From positions 1-23,367 of IMG/VR virus record IMGVR_UViG_3300011116_000368: a stretch of DNA of 23,367 nt; one strand, 5' to 3'. This DNA comes from a virus. The notes under the pieces are model-generated. The model saw only the letters and a list, made by a program, of their open reading frames with translations. It ran no database searches and was not told the origin of the DNA. The translations under genes and the position numbers were made by a program. Positions 10,681-22,844 of the stretch are shown one piece after another (position 1 is the stretch's first letter; each line of letters opens with the position of its first letter).

Positions 10681-11214
10681 TCAAAGGCCAAGTTTCTTCA
10701 ACTCTGCAATTGTTTGATTTGCACTCTTGTGATAGATTGCAATCCCGCCCACAGCAGTCCACTCTTGAACATTCTTCTTCCAATCATCGATCAAAATGTT
10801 TGGCTTACCATTCGTTGTTGCATAATCTTTCTTCTGGTGTCGAAGAACAATATTTGAGAAGTATGGCTTGGGATTTAGATTCTTCTCAATCCATTTCAGT
10901 TTATCTGCCTTTGATGACGGTTGCCATGTAGTTGTGTGTGCAGAAAGAATCTCGACTTTGTGCTTACTGATATAGTTCCATAACAATTTACCATCCGGCA
11001 TCCAAGGTAGTTTTGCGAACAGATTCGGATGTTCCTCGTCCATTCTTTTCTTGAGTGGATTGATGTGAGAGTCGAAGTTTTTGTTGGATAAGTTGGGAAT
11101 GTTGTAGAGTTTGGCTACTCCTGCAACAAGATCAACTAACACCCCATCCATATCGCAGTAGATCGTTGGTTTGTGCTGAAATGCTTCAGGGAAGTATTCT
11201 AGAAAGTCTTTCAT
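10681..11214 (-). CDS. HAD-superfamily 5'(3')-nucleotidase-like phosphatase
   Basis: A 177-residue HAD hydrolase. Motif I is CDMDGVLVD with nucleophile D21 and acid D23; motif II is ILSAHTT; a downstream Lys lies in RHQKKDYA; motif IV is ILIDDWKKNVQEW. This set and spacing fit the NT5C-type deoxyribonucleotidases found in many T4-like phages, which hydrolyse nucleoside monophosphates. Substrate cannot be read from the sequence. The ATG overlaps the stop of the upstream PAP2 phosphatase (ATGA), so two phosphatases from unrelated folds are translationally coupled. The sequence begins MKDFLEYFPEA, loosely like the capsid-targeting peptides elsewhere here, but F-P-E does not fit the protease rule. 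Confidence 0.85.
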   Translation of the reverse strand: MKDFLEYFPEAFQHKPTIYCDMDGVLVDLVAGVAKLYNIPNLSNKNFDSHINPLKKRMDEEHPNLFAKLPWMPDGKLLWNYISKHKVEILSAHTTTWQPSSKADKLKWIEKNLNPKPYFSNIVLRHQKKDYATTNGKPNILIDDWKKNVQEWTAVGGIAIYHKSANQTIAELKKLGL

Positions 11215-11894
11215 ATGACTGTCTCCATCAATTTGTTTTTCACAGCGTAGATCGCTGCTCGTTTTCCTGCCTCAAGATCCGATGGATAGTGAACACCGGC
11301 AACTACTCTAGAGTCTCCAATTCGATCTGCAATATCACTAAACTTCTCTGTATACTCAGGGTGTTTCTGCGATAGAATCGTAGCAAACATCCAAGCATCA
11401 AAAGAGTGTCCAGATGGATAAGCGGGAGTTGACGGATCCTTGATTCGAATAACGATTTTCTTACCATACTCTGGTGCGATCTGAAAGGGTCTGGCCCGAT
11501 TAAAATGCACCTTCAAGTAATTAAGAAACCCATCTGTCTTGTCGGTCAATTCATGGAACCAATCTCTTCCATAATACTTTCCAGTAAGAGACTCCGTTTC
11601 GTCTGACCACATGTCGTAATGGTCATCTAGATTGTCCATCCTCTGTGCGAATTCTCTCTCTTCGATAGTGGCTTCCGCCATTCTATTGATGATGTAGTTC
11701 AGTTCATTGATGGTCTTGGTGCTGCTGTTGGGCGGCGGCACATCAAGAACTCTCGACACAGGAACTCCTGACATCAAAAACTTGCTTAGTGATTTTGATG
11801 GATCGTTCTTGTGCTGATCAATCTGTACAAGATACTTTGACTTCATGTATCCGACGATTGTGTCTATCGAATGAATCTGTTGAAACTTTAACAT
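11211..11894 (-). CDS. PAP2-family phosphatase (class A acid phosphatase-like)
   Basis: A 227-residue protein with the complete PAP2 active-site signature: KX6RP (K128 to P136), PSGH (160-163) and SRX5HX3D (S195 to D206). These residues hold the phosphate and form the phosphohistidine intermediate through the last His (H202). There are no transmembrane helices and no clear signal peptide, so it is more like the soluble acid phosphatase/haloperoxidase branch than the membrane lipid phosphatases. It may act on nucleotides or sugar phosphates, fitting the coupled HAD nucleotidase. No ribosome binding site is obvious; the upstream stop is four bases away, so re-initiation is likely. Confidence 0.88.
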   Translation of the reverse strand: MLKFQQIHSIDTIVGYMKSKYLVQIDQHKNDPSKSLSKFLMSGVPVSRVLDVPPPNSSTKTINELNYIINRMAEATIEEREFAQRMDNLDDHYDMWSDETESLTGKYYGRDWFHELTDKTDGFLNYLKVHFNRARPFQIAPEYGKKIVIRIKDPSTPAYPSGHSFDAWMFATILSQKHPEYTEKFSDIADRIGDSRVVAGVHYPSDLEAGKRAAIYAVKNKLMETVI

Positions 11895-11897
11895 CGA

Positions 11898-12266
11898 TCA
11901 TTTCAGTCTGAGTAGATACTTAGTCTGATTCACCGCACCGAGCATCTCGTCACGAATATTCATCAAATCGGTGTTCTTACCGTCTAGCATTTGTGGAACA
12001 TCCTGCGACAGGTAAACAATAAACTCGTCAAGGAAAGCGACAACGGTCTTATTGTCCTTGTAGTTCTCTGCAACGAATGTAAAGTTGTCTTTGGCGGATG
12101 GAACTCCACCCTTCGTTCCAGCGAGTGTCTCAATGAATTGGTCTGTTAATCCATCAAGGGATTCATACAATTTACCGAGTGCTTTATGTTCGGCGTAAGA
12201 CTTGGTTTGCCAGTGATAAACTCTAAGTTGATTCTGTACAGTAAGTAGTTTGGTAATGATGTTCAT
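11898..12266 (-). CDS. DUF5856-like, ferritin/Dps-fold candidate
   Basis: A 122-residue all-alpha protein. RVYHWQTKSYAEHKALGKLYESLDGLTDQF recalls the helix of Dps/ferritin-like proteins (HWxxxxxxxHxxxxxxxD/E), and the family is widespread in T4-like marine phages as DUF5856. Iron binding or DNA protection is inference only: the residues present (H19, H27, E34, D38) could support a metal site, but some Dps ligands are not evident. A late promoter ends exactly five bases before the ATG, and no ribosome binding site is present. Confidence 0.6.
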   Translation of the reverse strand: MNIITKLLTVQNQLRVYHWQTKSYAEHKALGKLYESLDGLTDQFIETLAGTKGGVPSAKDNFTFVAENYKDNKTVVAFLDEFIVYLSQDVPQMLDGKNTDLMNIRDEMLGAVNQTKYLLRLK

Positions 12267-16129: not shown

Positions 16130-16158
16130 AGTATACCCCCGACCCAAACAAATGTCAA
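16130..16158 (-). promoter_or_regulatory. Sigma70-like promoter, start codon at predicted +1
   Basis: -35 TTGACA at 16153-16158, 17 bp spacer, -10 TATACT at 16130-16135, then TACGGT and ATG at 16123. It drives the 15773 gene and probably the Arg, Lys and Leu tRNAs. Confidence 0.75.
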
Positions 16159-16748
16159 GCCCGTTCTTCCAACTTAGTACGCAAGTATTCGGCATACATC
16201 TCAACCCAAGTCTTTGGTACTCCATAGGATTCAAATACAAATGGCTTTCCCTTCATGCGTGAATAAAATTCCCCAACCTTCATGGGCTTGAATTCGCCCA
16301 CAGAAACTTCTCTGCCAAGACCGGGAAAGTCAACAGAATTTCCTTCTTCGTCTGTCGCCTGAGTTCCAATAAGGTATGCTTTCTTATCGTTGTAGGGCTT
16401 GTAAAGAATCGAGTCCTGATTGTACTTCGACCCTAGTTTCTTAAGAATGCCCTTGAGATTTCCGTTATCGGCCATCTTTTCACCAATGACCAAATAGCAT
16501 CTCTCCTTAACATCCTTCGCCTTATCGGTCTTGTATCCTTCGATATAGTGACCTTCAAGACGATAGAAACCGAATCCCGATGCACGAATGTCGGACTCCA
16601 ACTTCCGACTTCGGTCTAGATTCTCGGACTTGGTGTATCTACCACGGGAAGCAGAGATGATTCCAATGTTCCTCTCTACCGTGTGTTGGTAGAGCCGAAC
16701 CATCGATGCTTCGTTAATCAAGTAAGTATTGCAGTTTTCCAAGATCAT
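16155..16748 (-). CDS. Unknown protein, DUF3293-like
   Basis: A 197-residue protein. RLYQHTVERNIGIISASRGRYTKSENLDRSRKL... followed by a Gly-rich strand and an FVxxx-type GEKMADNGNLKGILKKLGSKYNQDSILY block resembles DUF3293-type phage proteins (N..R...L, then Q.S.L). Function is unknown. The ATG at 16748 overlaps the upstream stop (ATGA); relatives may start at MVRLYQ (16703). If the longer start is right, the first 14 residues end in YLINEA, which fits an [IL]-x-E cleavage site. Confidence 0.65.
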   Translation of the reverse strand: MILENCNTYLINEASMVRLYQHTVERNIGIISASRGRYTKSENLDRSRKLESDIRASGFGFYRLEGHYIEGYKTDKAKDVKERCYLVIGEKMADNGNLKGILKKLGSKYNQDSILYKPYNDKKAYLIGTQATDEEGNSVDFPGLGREVSVGEFKPMKVGEFYSRMKGKPFVFESYGVPKTWVEMYAEYLRTKLEERA

Positions 16749-17350
16749 CCCTCGTCAGGTTCTTCAAGATAGTAATCACGATCATCGTGGTGCGGTTCAT
16801 CATCGGGCTTGTTGTCCATCTGATTGAACATCTGATTGATTGCATCGGTCAGATACTTGTTTAGGTCATCACCAAATGCCTTGTTGATGTCCTTTGGATT
16901 CTTGTTGACCTTCTTGAACTTCCAGTTTCCATCAGAACCCATGTAACCTTCGAACCACAGTTGGTTCATATAGTTATTCTTGATGGAATTGTTCTTTAGG
17001 CGATTCATCTCATCAATGAGAGATTCGAAGTAAGCATTTCCCATGAGTTGATCGTCAACTCCACCCGATCTCTCAACCATACTCTTCTCTACGGTTGCAA
17101 CACTTTGCTTGCTCATCTTTGTCACATCTTCAACCATCTTGCGATTTTCCATCATCGCATTGATGAACCCCTTGGGAATACTCTTGTACTTGTCGGCCTC
17201 AATTGCCATTCCCTCACCATACAGTTCGGCAGCAACAGACAACTCTGTGATTGTCTTATTGAGAATTCGAACAAGTCTAATGAGTTCTTTTTTCTCACGG
17301 GCTAGTTTGCTATTCGCTTCAAGAAGAGTGTAGAGGTTTTGATTGTTCAT
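16745..17350 (-). CDS. Unknown acidic helical protein
   Basis: A 201-residue protein of unknown function. Residues 1-120 are helical with coiled-coil character (ANSKLAREKKELIRLVRILNK, then long Lys/Glu/Met stretches); the C-terminal tail is strongly acidic, with HHDD and YYLEEPDEG. It starts MNNQNLYTLLEA. A weak sigma70-like promoter (TTGAAC, 16 bp, TAAACT) ends six bases before the ATG. The nearest purine-rich motif (GGAG) is 12 bases away, too far for a good ribosome binding site. The stop overlaps the start of the next gene. Confidence 0.7.
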   Translation of the reverse strand: MNNQNLYTLLEANSKLAREKKELIRLVRILNKTITELSVAAELYGEGMAIEADKYKSIPKGFINAMMENRKMVEDVTKMSKQSVATVEKSMVERSGGVDDQLMGNAYFESLIDEMNRLKNNSIKNNYMNQLWFEGYMGSDGNWKFKKVNKNPKDINKAFGDDLNKYLTDAINQMFNQMDNKPDDEPHHDDRDYYLEEPDEG

Positions 17351-17391: not shown

Positions 17392-18408
17392 TCACTTAGA
17401 TTTGCTGGTTTCAGGATATATCAAATCAAGAGTTTTTGATAATGCTTCTTTATCCTCATTCGGAGCCAAGAGACTCATGAACCAATTGATTCTCTCCATC
17501 TGACTATCATCTATTCCTTGCTTTCCTGCCTTCTTCAGACGGAAGTATGAAAAGTCTTTTGCCCATTCAGTAGGAAGTTTATTCCAATCTCTCTCAACTC
17601 CCTTTTCGTATGGCTTTCCAACATAACCCGGCAGTAGCAAATTTCCTTCTTTGTCTCTCGCAGCAAGTGACTGTCCACCGACCTTTTTTGTATCAGTTCC
17701 AGCATATTGCCAAGACATGTCCCCCAATTTTTGTTTTGGTCCACCAATGATCACCGCAACATCACCATTGATGTTTAATTTACTATAATCTCCGAATACC
17801 AACTTGTCCATTGTCATTTTTGCGCCGATGTGCGTATCCAATAAAATGTCGTTGAAGATCCTTCTTCCTCTTTGGTAATTCTGACGAAGAGCAATTTTAT
17901 AGTCAGTCAAAACCCAAACGATATGAATATTTTCTGGCTTGTACCCCGCAGCACGAAGAGTACCTACAATTTCATAAGCATCTTTTTGTGACTTAAGAGT
18001 GCAGTCGAACATCAAATTTGGTAAGTATGTTCTAGTTCCACCTGGATTAAACAATATCTGTGAGATTCGCTTCTCTTCAGGATCAAAATTCTTCATGAGT
18101 TGATGCAACTTGGATGTATGCTCAGGGTTTCGCATGTCCATTCCAGTTACTTGTGGAAGTAGAACTTGCATTTTCGGACTCAGCCCAACTCTTTGAGCAG
18201 ACTTAGATAACTTAATCACTAGTTCTTTAAGGTCATCAACATTTAGAATTTTGTAGTTTTCGCCCTGAATAAAGTGATTTGTGGCAAATGTTTTTCCTGA
18301 TCCTGCTCCTCCTGAAAGAATTACCACTTGCTCATACTTCTTTCCACCACCAAGAATAAGCAACTTTTCTTCTAAGTACTCTCTGAATTTATTGTATGTC
18401 TTAATCAT
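17392..18408 (-). CDS. P-loop kinase (zeta-toxin-like) with capsid-targeting-like N terminus
   Basis: A 338-residue P-loop protein. Walker A is GGAGSGKT (33-40), then NVDDL, then MFDCTLKSQKDAYEIVGTLRAAGY, then VWVLTDYKIALRQNYQRGRRIF. This layout (P-loop, D, T..., R-rich lid) is typical of zeta-toxin or polynucleotide-kinase-like phosphotransferases; substrate is unknown. The N terminus MIKTYNKFREYLEE resembles T4 internal-protein targeting peptides, with L-E-E at 12-14. GGAG precedes the ATG by about six bases. It directly follows three genes with clearer targeting peptides, so it may be packaged and injected. Confidence 0.7.
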   Translation of the reverse strand: MIKTYNKFREYLEEKLLILGGGKKYEQVVILSGGAGSGKTFATNHFIQGENYKILNVDDLKELVIKLSKSAQRVGLSPKMQVLLPQVTGMDMRNPEHTSKLHQLMKNFDPEEKRISQILFNPGGTRTYLPNLMFDCTLKSQKDAYEIVGTLRAAGYKPENIHIVWVLTDYKIALRQNYQRGRRIFNDILLDTHIGAKMTMDKLVFGDYSKLNINGDVAVIIGGPKQKLGDMSWQYAGTDTKKVGGQSLAARDKEGNLLLPGYVGKPYEKGVERDWNKLPTEWAKDFSYFRLKKAGKQGIDDSQMERINWFMSLLAPNEDKEALSKTLDLIYPETSKSK

Positions 18409-18419
18409 TCTGCTCTCCG

Positions 18420-18881
18420 TTAAACTTTCAACTTCGGATCAGAAGTTTTGAAATCTGCTTTCTTCATAGCAGTCATCATCACCATCTTCTTCATACTACC
18501 TTGCCAATCTAAAGTGAAAGGCATGTTCAAATCTTTACTGACATCGTGAATTACTGCTTTCCAATCAACAGGATGTGCGCTAATTTGTGATGCATACTTT
18601 GCATATGTTTTACGGAAAGCATCTTGGATTTCAGGAACACTAACTGTTCCACCATATCCTCTGCTTCCATTAATTCTTTCCCAAAAGTGTTGAGTAAATG
18701 CTATATCAAGTTTCGCAGTCTTAAACAAGTTGTCAAGAACTGATTCTAGTCTCTTTAGATCGTTTTTAGTAATAAACTGTTGGGGATTAGATGCGGATGC
18801 ATATGCGCCCGTGGTAGGTCGGTCGGTGACAATGCCCTCATCTAAAGTGGCTTCTATTATGTAAGACTTAAATGATTTCAT
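18420..18881 (-). CDS. Candidate packaged protein with capsid-targeting peptide (MKSFKSYIIE)
   Basis: A 153-residue protein. The first eleven residues, MKSFKSYIIEA, closely match the capsid-targeting peptide of T4 internal proteins (MKTYQEFIAEA), with the prohead-protease rule [IL]-x-E met at residue 10 and Ala following. The rest forms a small domain, including AFTQHFWERINGSRGYGG, and ends KMVMMTAMKKADFKTSDPKLKV. This resembles a recurrent T4-like phage domain and, loosely, RelE/barnase-type nucleases (His, Arg and C-terminal T/K pattern); activity is not shown. It follows the upstream stop by six bases; the ribosome binding site is weak. Confidence 0.7.
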   Translation of the reverse strand: MKSFKSYIIEATLDEGIVTDRPTTGAYASASNPQQFITKNDLKRLESVLDNLFKTAKLDIAFTQHFWERINGSRGYGGTVSVPEIQDAFRKTYAKYASQISAHPVDWKAVIHDVSKDLNMPFTLDWQGSMKKMVMMTAMKKADFKTSDPKLKV

Positions 18882-18887
18882 CTCTCG

Positions 18888-19403
18888 TCATTTCACCAGA
18901 TTCAGTAAATCAGAGACCATCACGATGAGTTTCATGATCTCTGCTCCTATACTGATTCGCTTCTTACCTATTTTGTCCTGATCTGTTACTGTTGCTTTGG
19001 AATCTGACTCCTCAAGTTTCTCGTCCAATTCCCAAGGACCGTAGTGTCCATTAGAAAGCATTTTCTTTCTCATATCAGAGAAAGCATACTTTTTATACGC
19101 TCCCTTTTCATTTGGATTAATTTTTCCGATTGCATAGTATAATTTCTTGTTCATCTCAATCTTTCTACCATTTGAGTAATCGTAGACTTTGTCTTGATCC
19201 TCGACCCAAGCATGAGGAAATCGTTTGCCTTTGACTTTTCCCTGACCGTAAACTAGAGCATGGACAAGTATTGGACTGCCCTTTGCTTTCATTTTTTTAC
19301 CGAAGAAATCTGTATAGAACCTCAACATAAGTTTTGCTGCTGCTTCCATACAGTCTCCGTTGCCAATATTGTTTTCCGTAAGATACGATTTAAATGATTT
19401 CAT
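18888..19403 (-). CDS. Candidate packaged papain-fold protein (MKSFKSYLTE)
   Basis: A 171-residue protein beginning MKSFKSYLTEN, a T4-type capsid-targeting peptide with predicted cleavage after E10. The body has an ordered Cys-His-Asp set: C18 in GNGDCMEAA, H64 in RFPHAWVED and D75 in KVYDYSNG, spaced as in papain-fold or transglutaminase-like enzymes. Protease, amidase or deamidating activity is inference. The ATG at 19403 overlaps the previous stop (ATGA) and has GAGG five bases upstream; an in-frame ATG at 19421 would add MAVEDK and bury the targeting peptide. Confidence 0.75.
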   Translation of the reverse strand: MKSFKSYLTENNIGNGDCMEAAAKLMLRFYTDFFGKKMKAKGSPILVHALVYGQGKVKGKRFPHAWVEDQDKVYDYSNGRKIEMNKKLYYAIGKINPNEKGAYKKYAFSDMRKKMLSNGHYGPWELDEKLEESDSKATVTDQDKIGKKRISIGAEIMKLIVMVSDLLNLVK

Positions 19404-19690
19404 CTTGTCCTCGACTGCCATGCTGGCGTTTGTGGTAAACTTTTTGAGTTGACTGCCTCTTCTTTGTTAGCAGAAACTGCTTTCATCCAGTTCAAGATGA
19501 ACTCTCTCCTCTGATTTGCTAAGTCCGCATTTTGAACTTCCCAAGGCTTCATCTTTTTCTTATCTGCCTCTGTATAATTCTCAACATCAAAGTCAGTTGC
19601 AACTCTGTCCAAAGCAAATCCCGCTCCACTCCCTAAGTAGATCATATTTGCTGTGGTATTCTCATTAATATGTTGTCTAAATGATTTCAC
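19400..19690 (-). CDS. Small candidate packaged protein (MKSFRQHINE), GTG start
   Basis: A 96-residue protein starting MKSFRQHINEN, the third member of the series, with I-N-E at residues 8-10. After cleavage about 86 residues would remain, rich in Ala and charged residues with no known domain (NMIYLGSGAGFALDRVATDFD, KPWEVQNADLANQRREFILNW). The start codon is GTG. A late promoter ends exactly five bases before it and there is no ribosome binding site. Its end overlaps the next gene of the series. Confidence 0.7.
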   Translation of the reverse strand: MKSFRQHINENTTANMIYLGSGAGFALDRVATDFDVENYTEADKKKMKPWEVQNADLANQRREFILNWMKAVSANKEEAVNSKSLPQTPAWQSRTR

Positions 19691-19695
19691 GGGAG

Positions 19696-19702
19696 TATTT
19701 AG
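19696..19702 (-). promoter_or_regulatory. T4-type late promoter placing +1 at a GTG start
   Basis: Minus-strand CTAAATA, five bases (CTCCC), then GTG at 19690. It would drive the run of candidate packaged proteins late in infection. Confidence 0.6.
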
Positions 19703-20639: not shown

Positions 20640-22844
20640 TTAGAATCGTTTACTTAGTGCCTTGAGTAAGTAAGAAGCACCGTCACCACTCTTACTCAGT
20701 CTAACTTTGCCGTTCTTGACGCATTCTTGTGCGCCGATTCCGAAACCACTTGATCCACAGCCCCACTCATTTCCTCTGCTCTTGAACTTTACCATTCTAC
20801 GGACTTGATCACAGTCACGGTAAGCAGCGAAGAATTCTTCCATGTTTCCCTTTGTGAAGTCCTTACTGAAAGAAACGGAAGTGTTGCTCTCCACGGTTAT
20901 GGCTACACCGTTGCTCTTTGCCACTTTACGAATCTCGTTTGCAAGGTTTGCCGCTTCTTCTACTTTGGATTCGTGTATGTTTTTCCAACTGTCAGAATCA
21001 ATTTCCTCAAACAACATATCGATAATTTCGTCATCTACTTCAACACTAGAATCGATGTCGCTTTCATTAAGCATCTTGACTGCATTATCAAATTGCTCAA
21101 ATCTAGGATCACTCTTTGCTTCTAGTGCGAGTTTATCCATTCTATACTTCTTCTTGTATTCATCCTCGCTCATTTGTCCCGACCTGACTTTCATCAAATC
21201 GTCCTGCATTTTCTTGATCTTTGCTATGTCTCCAGTTACGAGCGCAGCATCAGCCGCAAGCGCAGCAGCGGTTCCATATCCAGGAAATGTCGATGCTACT
21301 CCACCGACTAATTCAATAGCGGCTTTGATGTACTCTCCCTTGGCAAGTCTATTGACAGCAAAAACCGTTCCAAGTGCTAGACCAACAATTGGAATCTTGG
21401 ACAAGAGCATTCTTGCTCCTTCCTTTCCTAGAACCTTAAGCGCAATTCGCAACAAGGTTTGCTTCCCTATTGTCTGCACAACTTTCAGTCCTGCTCTATT
21501 CACTGCTTGGCTCGTTGCTTGTCTTTTAATTTTCTTGATTGCAACTCCCTTGGCAATTTTATCAAATTCAGATTGACCGGGAATTTTAATTTTGCCATAC
21601 TCTTTTGGTTCTTCACCTTCCCCATCTTCAATGTCTGCTTCGATTTTGCTCTTGTACTTCGCATAGTCCTGCGGCTTCAAGAATCCCTTGATTTCTTTTG
21701 CTGCATATTCACGGTCTTTCTTGTCAAACAGATCATCGAAATTATCTAACACGGTATCTACATCGGTACGATCATAGAACCCAAATGACTTTCCCCCTTC
21801 GATTGTGCCTTTGAGACCACCTTTTCTATATGCTTTTTCGATGGCATCAAGGAACACATCTCTTCGGCCTCCTGCTTTTGCGAGTGTCTCATGAATCTGC
21901 TTCCAATCAACACTTTCGCTCATCTTGCTAACCATGTTATCCCCAATCTTGTACATCCACAAGGAAACGGCTTTTAGTAATTCCTTAGGAGCATAACGAA
22001 CCTCTTTGTCTGTGAGTATACGAGTGGATGAACCGGGATACGCAATTAGAACTTTCTCCACCTGATTTGTGCCTTTGTAAAAGAACATTGTGTATGGAGA
22101 GACTGAAGTTTTCGTATTCGGTTTCGCTGGCTTCTGAATGAATCCAACGGTTTTACCAGATATGATAACCATGTATCCCTCGACACTACCTTCCTTGAAA
22201 GGTTCGAAGGTATACTTACCGATTACCGCTTCAGTCAGTTCTTCGCTATTCTCTTCAACACTCTCAGCCTTCACATACTTGACATGGTTGCGGATCGCCC
22301 ACTTCTCCATGACAGGCTTGCCGTCCGCACCCTCATCGACTGCGATGTAGCAGACGGTTCCCTTGACATTGGCTGCTCTCCATTGGGTGAGTCCCCCGCC
22401 GGGGTCAGAGACACAGACTTCGTGCATGAGACCATGGCTTTTACCCCATGAGTCGGTTGAGTTGCGGTACTCAAACCGCTTCTTCTTGGTTGACTCGGTG
22501 AAAGCACCAACGATTCCCTTTGTGTCCAAGGGAGCGTATGCTTCCTCAACTTCCTCTTTAGTTGATAGTAACTTTGGAGAATTGGCTTTGAAAATATCTC
22601 TTGCACTCACCTCAACTGTTTTACCTGTCTTAAAAATTTTGACTGTGAATGTACCACCTGGCTCTTTACCCGCTTTCCATGAAATCAATTCGCCTCTATC
22701 GTTTCCTGGTGGAACCCAAAGAGACTCTCCCTTCTTGAACCCTTTAGGAAAGCGTGGGTCTTTCGCCTCTTCGATATCGACCTCTTGCCCGTAACCATAC
22801 TTTTCGGCTTCTTCTTTAATGATGCGTTGCCAATGTTGCCACAT
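20640..22844 (-). CDS. Large probable virion protein with membrane-active-like region
   Basis: A 734-residue protein of unknown function. Residues 30-100 look like small beta domains with Trp and Gly (WVPPGNDRGELISWKAG). A hydrophobic, Gly/Ala-rich region at about 463-540 (RIALKVLGKEG, IPIVGLALGTVFAVNRLAKG, then GGVASTF and PGYGTAAALAADAALVTGD) resembles segments in internal virion, tape-measure and toxin-delivery proteins. WKQIHE (314-319) and WKNIHE (620-625) repeat, and N-terminal WQRIIKEE is similar; these and LTE-A (203-206) fit the [IL]-x-E protease rule, so it could be processed. AAGGGG precedes the ATG. Confidence 0.7.
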   Translation of the reverse strand: MWQHWQRIIKEEAEKYGYGQEVDIEEAKDPRFPKGFKKGESLWVPPGNDRGELISWKAGKEPGGTFTVKIFKTGKTVEVSARDIFKANSPKLLSTKEEVEEAYAPLDTKGIVGAFTESTKKKRFEYRNSTDSWGKSHGLMHEVCVSDPGGGLTQWRAANVKGTVCYIAVDEGADGKPVMEKWAIRNHVKYVKAESVEENSEELTEAVIGKYTFEPFKEGSVEGYMVIISGKTVGFIQKPAKPNTKTSVSPYTMFFYKGTNQVEKVLIAYPGSSTRILTDKEVRYAPKELLKAVSLWMYKIGDNMVSKMSESVDWKQIHETLAKAGGRRDVFLDAIEKAYRKGGLKGTIEGGKSFGFYDRTDVDTVLDNFDDLFDKKDREYAAKEIKGFLKPQDYAKYKSKIEADIEDGEGEEPKEYGKIKIPGQSEFDKIAKGVAIKKIKRQATSQAVNRAGLKVVQTIGKQTLLRIALKVLGKEGARMLLSKIPIVGLALGTVFAVNRLAKGEYIKAAIELVGGVASTFPGYGTAAALAADAALVTGDIAKIKKMQDDLMKVRSGQMSEDEYKKKYRMDKLALEAKSDPRFEQFDNAVKMLNESDIDSSVEVDDEIIDMLFEEIDSDSWKNIHESKVEEAANLANEIRKVAKSNGVAITVESNTSVSFSKDFTKGNMEEFFAAYRDCDQVRRMVKFKSRGNEWGCGSSGFGIGAQECVKNGKVRLSKSGDGASYLLKALSKRF

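Follow-up and report, generated by a model that had tools for sequence, protein, structure and literature searches.

A run of three genes with predicted T4-type capsid-targeting peptides in an environmental virus genome: putative late operon of packaged and injected head proteins

The locus and its three genes

The sequence studied, hereafter the window, is a virus record of 23,367 nt (IMGVR_UViG_3300011116_000368 from IMG/VR, positions 1 to 23,367), whose replication genes gp43, gp44, gp45, gp62 and RegA are of T4 type; the head genes gp20-gp24 were not found in this 23-kb fragment. The features of the gene run are the following:

19696..19702, minus strand: late-promoter box CTAAATA (T4/Aeh1-type), beginning 12 nt before the gene 3 GTG
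19400..19690, minus strand: gene 3, first of the run; 96-aa protein, MKSFRQHINE-N, GTG start, small body
19661..19690, minus strand: predicted capsid-targeting peptide of gene 3, predicted cut after E10 (I-N-E)
18888..19403, minus strand: gene 2; 171-aa protein, MKSFKSYLTE-N, papain/transglutaminase-like body with invariant C18, H64 and D75
19374..19403, minus strand: predicted capsid-targeting peptide of gene 2 (L-T-E)
18420..18881, minus strand: gene 1; 153-aa protein, MKSFKSYIIE-A, RegB/RelE-like predicted fold
18852..18881, minus strand: predicted capsid-targeting peptide of gene 1 (I-I-E)

The start of gene 2 overlaps the stop of gene 3 via an ATGA, gene 2 is separated from gene 1 by 6 nt, and 11 nt lie between gene 1 and a kinase-like gene (17392-18408), which is followed by a helical protein and then by an S-adenosylmethionine-lyase-like protein. 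Gene 2 has a second in-frame ATG at 19421, upstream of the ATG at 19403; the latter is preceded by the Shine-Dalgarno-like GAGGACAAG and is the start used by the relatives. The GTG at 19690 is the first start codon of gene 3 after a stop. The original prediction, of three consecutive genes with similar N termini, E at residue 10 and an [IL]-x-E cleavage rule, was borne out: the three reading frames are present on the minus strand, and all the products carry the motif. Residue 7 of gene 3 is His rather than an aromatic residue; its orthologues have Y, F, W or H at this position, as in MKSFKQYIHE (L005/L006), MKSFSRFIRE (L007), MMRFRHWLNE (L010) and MKSFLQHVME (G002), and His7 peptides occur elsewhere among the relatives (MKSFKQHINE, MRTFKQHMNE, MKSFKQHISE). 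Beyond these orthologues, gene 3 has no known relatives. A DNA-level search of annotated phages with the window gave no match; Pfam, PHROGs and NCBIfam returned nothing useful for the three proteins beyond phrog_23027 for body 1 (the part of gene 1 behind the peptide), and a profile search of solved-structure sequences found nothing.

The three genes adjoin and their first 30 nt are 60-77% identical, as might be expected of diverged paralogues that merely inherited a similar N terminus; directly past the peptide, however, identity falls to 27-37%, and between genes 1 and 2 it drops from 77% in the first 30 nt to 30% in the next 60 nt. Moreover, bodies 2 and 1 differ in predicted fold, form separate families elsewhere and co-occur as domains of one fused protein, which makes common descent of the three genes an extremely improbable explanation and agrees with the claim that the bodies are unrelated.

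The peptide and the T4 capsid-targeting sequence

Mutants of the T4 IPIII peptide assigned targeting to residues 4 and 7 and processing to residues 8 and 10, and the T4 gp21 protease cleaves after L/I-x-E (PMC9026906). Genes 1 and 2 agree with the T4 capsid-targeting sequence (CTS) at positions 4, 7, 8 and 10, gene 3 at three of them, the exception being His7. A strict rule, M-x-x-[FYW]-x-x-[FYW]-[ILVM]-x-E, was applied blindly: in T4, with 681 start codons and 1274 internal codons covered, it selected only ipII, ipIII and 61.1, all at starts, while in the window and six relatives it matched 17 of 2591 start codons near ORF starts versus 4 of 7311 internal ones (Fisher p 2e-7). It had been stated that T4 internal proteins begin MKTYQEFIAE-A; this is correct for IPII and IPIII, but not for IPI, which begins MKTFKEFTSTTTPVSTITE and is without E10. 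The product of T4 gene 61.1 (NC_000866 18966-19130, L214) begins MKTFKEFIKE-D; its fit to the strict rule equals that of ipII and ipIII, which makes it a candidate for a further tagged T4 protein.

In the 174-kb cyanophage S-SM1, the strict rule selects exactly one ORF, the cytidylyltransferase SSM1_190/T4-GC190 (MKKFSAFLNE-A), and T4-GC190 is one of the 41 proteins detected by mass spectrometry in purified S-SM1 virions (Sullivan et al. 2010, PMC3037559). A random S-SM1 protein has a chance of about 17% (about one in six) of being on that list, so that the agreement, concerning one protein, supports the assignment and does not prove it.

Recurrence of the tag and of the gp21 protease

IMG/VR was scanned with a degenerate DNA pattern for M-K-[S/T-like]-F-K-x-Y-[I/L-like]-x-E, one of the possible spellings of the peptide. 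It is present in at least 120 viral contigs, compared with 1 for a residue-permuted control, and 125 of the 133 matches listed sit at ORF starts. A search for the same peptide on other bodies in relatives had been proposed as a check: once the peptide is removed, the bodies of the matches listed fall into 53 clusters without mutual similarity at E 1e-3, including adenylate kinase, a RelA/SpoT-type HD domain, HNH and DUF6267, and runs of 3 to 6 adjoining tagged genes occur in L104, L161, L172 and L199. In the open-access literature, to which the search was confined, no description was found of the tag on environmental T4-type phages at such scale.

Some tagged genes merit mention in their own right. 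L096:279-842 encodes a tagged (MKSFKQYISE) RelA/SpoT-type HD protein (HD_4 3.6e-16, spoT_relA 2e-25), possibly an injected alarmone hydrolase, and similar proteins are found in L350 and L353; L149:8298-8897 is an adenylate kinase with the tag MKRFKSYIKE (ADK 3e-41). L145:6928-7557 and its relatives form a tagged family of approximately 200 aa, which accounts for 50 of 127 bodies among the IMG/VR matches listed and whose representative had no Pfam or PHROG match. Cellular genomes were rejected as a source of the tag: across 257 Gb it is present in 48 contigs, and many of these are phage-like or have it at an aquaporin-like start. One aquaporin-like family begins MKSFKKYLAEF, thus the motif alone can be a coincidence.

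The protease that would process these peptides accompanies them. PF03420/gp21 is encoded in 10 of the 12 large tagged contigs; the relatives G001 (168 kb) and G003 (195 kb) encode both gp21 and gp23, and L-x-E sites near the expected end of the gp23 propeptide appear consistent with L-x-E specificity. Since the window is a fragment lacking gp20-gp24, the presence of gp21 is documented in the relatives only.

The peptide might instead tether the bodies to the virion, at the head core, neck or baseplate, as structural components and not as delivered effectors. Indeed, where the S-SM1 report lists T4-GC190, it presents the protein simply as a virion structural protein and draws no link to a targeting peptide (PMC3037559); one tagged protein of G003, MKTFSKLLSE, is encoded between gp20 and gp21, within the assembly cluster and at the position taken in T4 by core genes 67 and 68; and T4 IPIII also aids head assembly (PMC9026906). 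On the other hand, the bodies are unrelated and enzyme-like (adenylate kinase, RelA/SpoT-type HD, HNH, zeta-like kinase, Cys-His-Asp domain), the cargo sets vary among relatives while structural genes do not, and the T4 proteins of the same class, IPI-III, are injected, and each was recently found to inhibit a different GmrSD enzyme, GmrSD being a type IV restriction enzyme (PMC12373910). A purely structural role is thus considered unlikely, and delivery of the bodies is preferred.

Late-promoter box and predicted timing of expression

T4 late promoters have TATAAATA at -13 to -6, and those of Aeh1 have CTAAATA from -12 (PMC1524935). The CTAAATA box that precedes gene 3 is kept before its orthologues in G001 and G002. 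In G001, late boxes precede 39 of 186 genes versus 1.9 expected, including gp22, gp23 and tail genes. At the tagged loci, a late box lies within 60 nt of 66 of the 122 tagged genes and of 232 of the 1163 other ORFs, an excess that shrinks, to about 32% of tagged genes, when each cluster counts once. On the promoter consensus, genes 3, 2 and 1 would be made late, at the time of head assembly, and late synthesis suits packaged proteins more than proteins used within the same infection.

In loci L084-L203, 152 of 344 late boxes begin 11-14 nt ahead of the start codon (103 at exactly 12); the corresponding figures are 10 of 41 in G001 and 11 of 38 in G002, against 1 of 34 in T4, 0 of 34 in S-SM1 and 1 of 47 in G003. 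Given the T4 spacing, the late mRNAs of a large group of T4-type phages are predicted to be leaderless. The common N terminus could be a nucleic-acid or translation signal, such as a downstream element of leaderless late mRNAs, rather than a sorting peptide, and a late box 12 nt ahead of the start is indeed common among the tagged genes. Genes 1 and 2, however, are inside the operon, each with its own Shine-Dalgarno-like site, and G003 and S-SM1 have tagged genes without the 12-nt peak. In addition, the codons of the conserved positions vary freely, with synonymous variation at positions 4, 5, 7 and 8, while residues 7, 8 and 10 are conserved as amino acids, indicating that the constraint acts on the peptide. 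A translation signal is therefore a very improbable explanation, and the N terminus is best read as a sorting peptide.

The bodies of genes 1 and 2

The invariant residues of gene 1 are D50, D59, F62, T63, H65, F66, R69, R74, N119, P121, T137, M139, K141 and F144. The AlphaFold model of body 1 (pLDDT 81.8) matches a viral protein of BFVD annotated "site-specific RNA endonuclease", a name that we take to be that of RegB (E 9.8e-5, TM 0.57/0.62), whereas the top matches among solved structures, the YoeB/ParE, RelE and HigB toxins, are not significant. T4 RegB has a RelE/YoeB fold with catalytic H48 and H68 (PMC3014915). The FTQHFWER stretch of body 1 aligns with YSQHLLDR of RegB, placing the invariant H65 on catalytic H48, in a weak profile match (score 19.2, where the highest-scoring of 60 shuffles reached 17.4); the alignment stops short of RegB H68, and by eye K or R occupies that place. 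The model thus points to a RelE/YoeB-like fold, and the fold match and the H65/H48 correspondence, together with K or R in place of H68, make an RNA-directed role likely and catalysis uncertain. The RNase-like domain that had been proposed is supported by the predicted fold, with one catalytic histidine aligned, while H68 is without an evident counterpart. Body 1 is a widespread module with at least 493 occurrences in IMG/VR, either by itself or as the closing part of cytidylyltransferases and other proteins; indeed, some homologues of T4-GC190 in IMG/VR contigs have it at their C terminus.

In body 2, C18, H64 and D75 are invariant in 32 relatives and form an ordered Cys-His-Asp triad. Its model (pLDDT 85.6) gave as best solved matches an endolysin, SseI and USP14, all with E >=0.3 and thus not significant; these weak matches are cysteine hydrolases. 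The Transglut_core3 profile matches six members of the family, with a best E of 0.11, and tblastn against annotated phages with body 2 gave no match. The papain-like assignment is accordingly upheld at the level of the three invariant residues, and not at that of fold, where no solved structure is significant.

The two bodies are also found joined: L003, L004, L005, L006, L008 and L009 encode body 2 and body 1 as one protein of 302-309 aa with a single tag, whereas a body 1 encoded separately, behind a tag of its own, is found in the window, L007 and L010; other viruses have body 2 without a tag, as a free-standing protein of 110-150 aa. Such behaviour is expected of an address tag whose cargo is interchangeable. 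In the fused relatives, the linker contains an L/V-x-E-G-I-V stretch, a potential gp21 site; cleavage of a polyprotein at this point is a mere possibility, the result not being significant for a short linker in closely related sequences.

Neighbouring genes

Three other genes of the window were considered in relation to the tag:

17392..18408, minus strand: zeta-toxin-like P-loop kinase; N terminus MIKTYNKFREYLEE, CTS-like, off-register
16155..16748, minus strand: S-adenosylmethionine lyase-like protein (PF23780 1.6e-12), at the end of the run
10681..11214, minus strand: deoxyribonucleotidase-like HAD protein, MKDFLEYFPE-A, with F for I/L at position 8

Homologues of the kinase have the strict peptide in G003 (MKSFKSYIKE), G005 (MKSFLQYLDE) and L011 (MKKFNEFITE); the window kinase was rejected as a strict tag carrier, since its FREYLEEKL belongs to the kinase family and L011 has both. 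The helical gene at 16745-17350 was likewise rejected as cargo, the E not being kept in L016. The S-adenosylmethionine (SAM) lyase-like protein keeps [IL]-N-E-A near its N terminus, without the strict peptide, and is possibly cargo: a SAM lyase would be useful early, hence its late synthesis would be sensible if the protein were carried into the next cell, a step weakened by an N terminus off the rule. Its homologues are found in cyanophages, Campylobacter phages and Lak phages. The orthologue of the deoxyribonucleotidase-like protein in G007 has the strict peptide MKDFQQYLTE-A, which makes the window protein a probable further cargo.

Positions 10681-12266 form a second late-box run, whose genes encode a DPS-like protein (late box 12 nt upstream of the start), the near-strict-tagged deoxyribonucleotidase-like protein and one resembling PAP2 phosphatases. 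At 20640-22844, a 734-aa protein begins MWQHWQRIIKE-E, a loose fit to the tag, and this start is kept in L003 and L004; a region of this protein matches large phage "endolysin/peptidase" families.

Proposed function

Taken together, the run is very probably a late operon of head cargo that is packaged, cleaved and injected. The capsid-targeting reading put forward in the original prediction is sustained by the match to T4 mutational data, the recurrence on unrelated bodies, the co-occurrence with gp21, the late box, the fusion and fission of the bodies and the S-SM1 proteomics. Packaging of the three products is strongly supported by sequence inference; for this phage we infer that they dock on the prohead core, are cut after E10, stay in the head, are injected and act on host defence or host functions. 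A gp55-type late promoter at approximately 19,700 would drive genes 3, 2 and 1, and probably genes beyond. Each product would be made with a ten-residue capsid-targeting peptide, whose residues 4 and 7 would dock on the prohead core, and the gp21 protease of the phage would cut after E10 (I/L-x-E). The mature body would stay in the head beside the DNA, enter the next host cell with the genome and act there before any phage gene is expressed: body 1 probably as a RegB/RelE-fold protein that binds or cuts RNA, body 2 probably as a Cys-His-Asp hydrolase or acyltransferase. Likely roles would be the neutralisation of a host defence or the takeover of host functions; inhibition of GmrSD enzymes by the T4 internal proteins is the best precedent, and the window bodies may have other targets.

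Proteins of this kind are known from long-standing work on T4, so the three genes would be new members. A broader reading, for which we see an even chance, is that the injected effectors of environmental T4-type phages are grouped in late islands with exchangeable content, which can be read from the ten-residue tag; these islands would comprise RNA-directed RegB/RelE-fold proteins, cysteine enzymes, kinases, a RelA/SpoT-type alarmone hydrolase and perhaps SAM lyases. If so, the internal proteins of T4 would represent only a minor part of an extensive set of injected proteins, with which a phage is armed before any of its genes is transcribed; to our knowledge, the non-DNA cargo injected by T4-type phages is mostly unknown. 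Provided that the tag works as in T4, the ten-residue rule would list injected candidates from metagenomes, in dozens of families, which can be tried singly against host defences.

Comparison with known systems

An annotated homologue of body 1 is in a 602-aa protein of Sinorhizobium phage phiM12 (phrog_23027), whose C-terminal 117 residues are homologous to it (33% identity); there, however, the module is the tail of a large multidomain protein without the strict peptide. RegB is similar to body 1 in predicted structure, which is RegB/RelE-like, and in the position of H65 at H48, and differs in H68, for which body 1 has no evident counterpart; RegB is expressed from an early promoter, and we know of no report of it as a packaged protein. 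S-SM1 T4-GC190 shares the same strict peptide and is present in virions, but its main body differs.

T4 Alt, an ADP-ribosyltransferase injected from the head, resembles the window products in being an enzyme carried in the head and injected, as proposed for them, and differs in having its own short propeptide, MELITELFDE, outside the strict rule, and an unrelated domain. The T4 internal proteins IPI-III share with the window genes a ten-residue N-terminal peptide in which positions 4, 7, 8 and 10 hold equal residue classes and which is followed by unrelated bodies, as well as adjoining genes and a gp21 protease (here, in the relatives). Unlike them, gene 3 has His7 and the window cargo is predicted to be packaged; the bodies also differ, and while T4 has three such proteins, these phages have more, some with enzyme-like folds.
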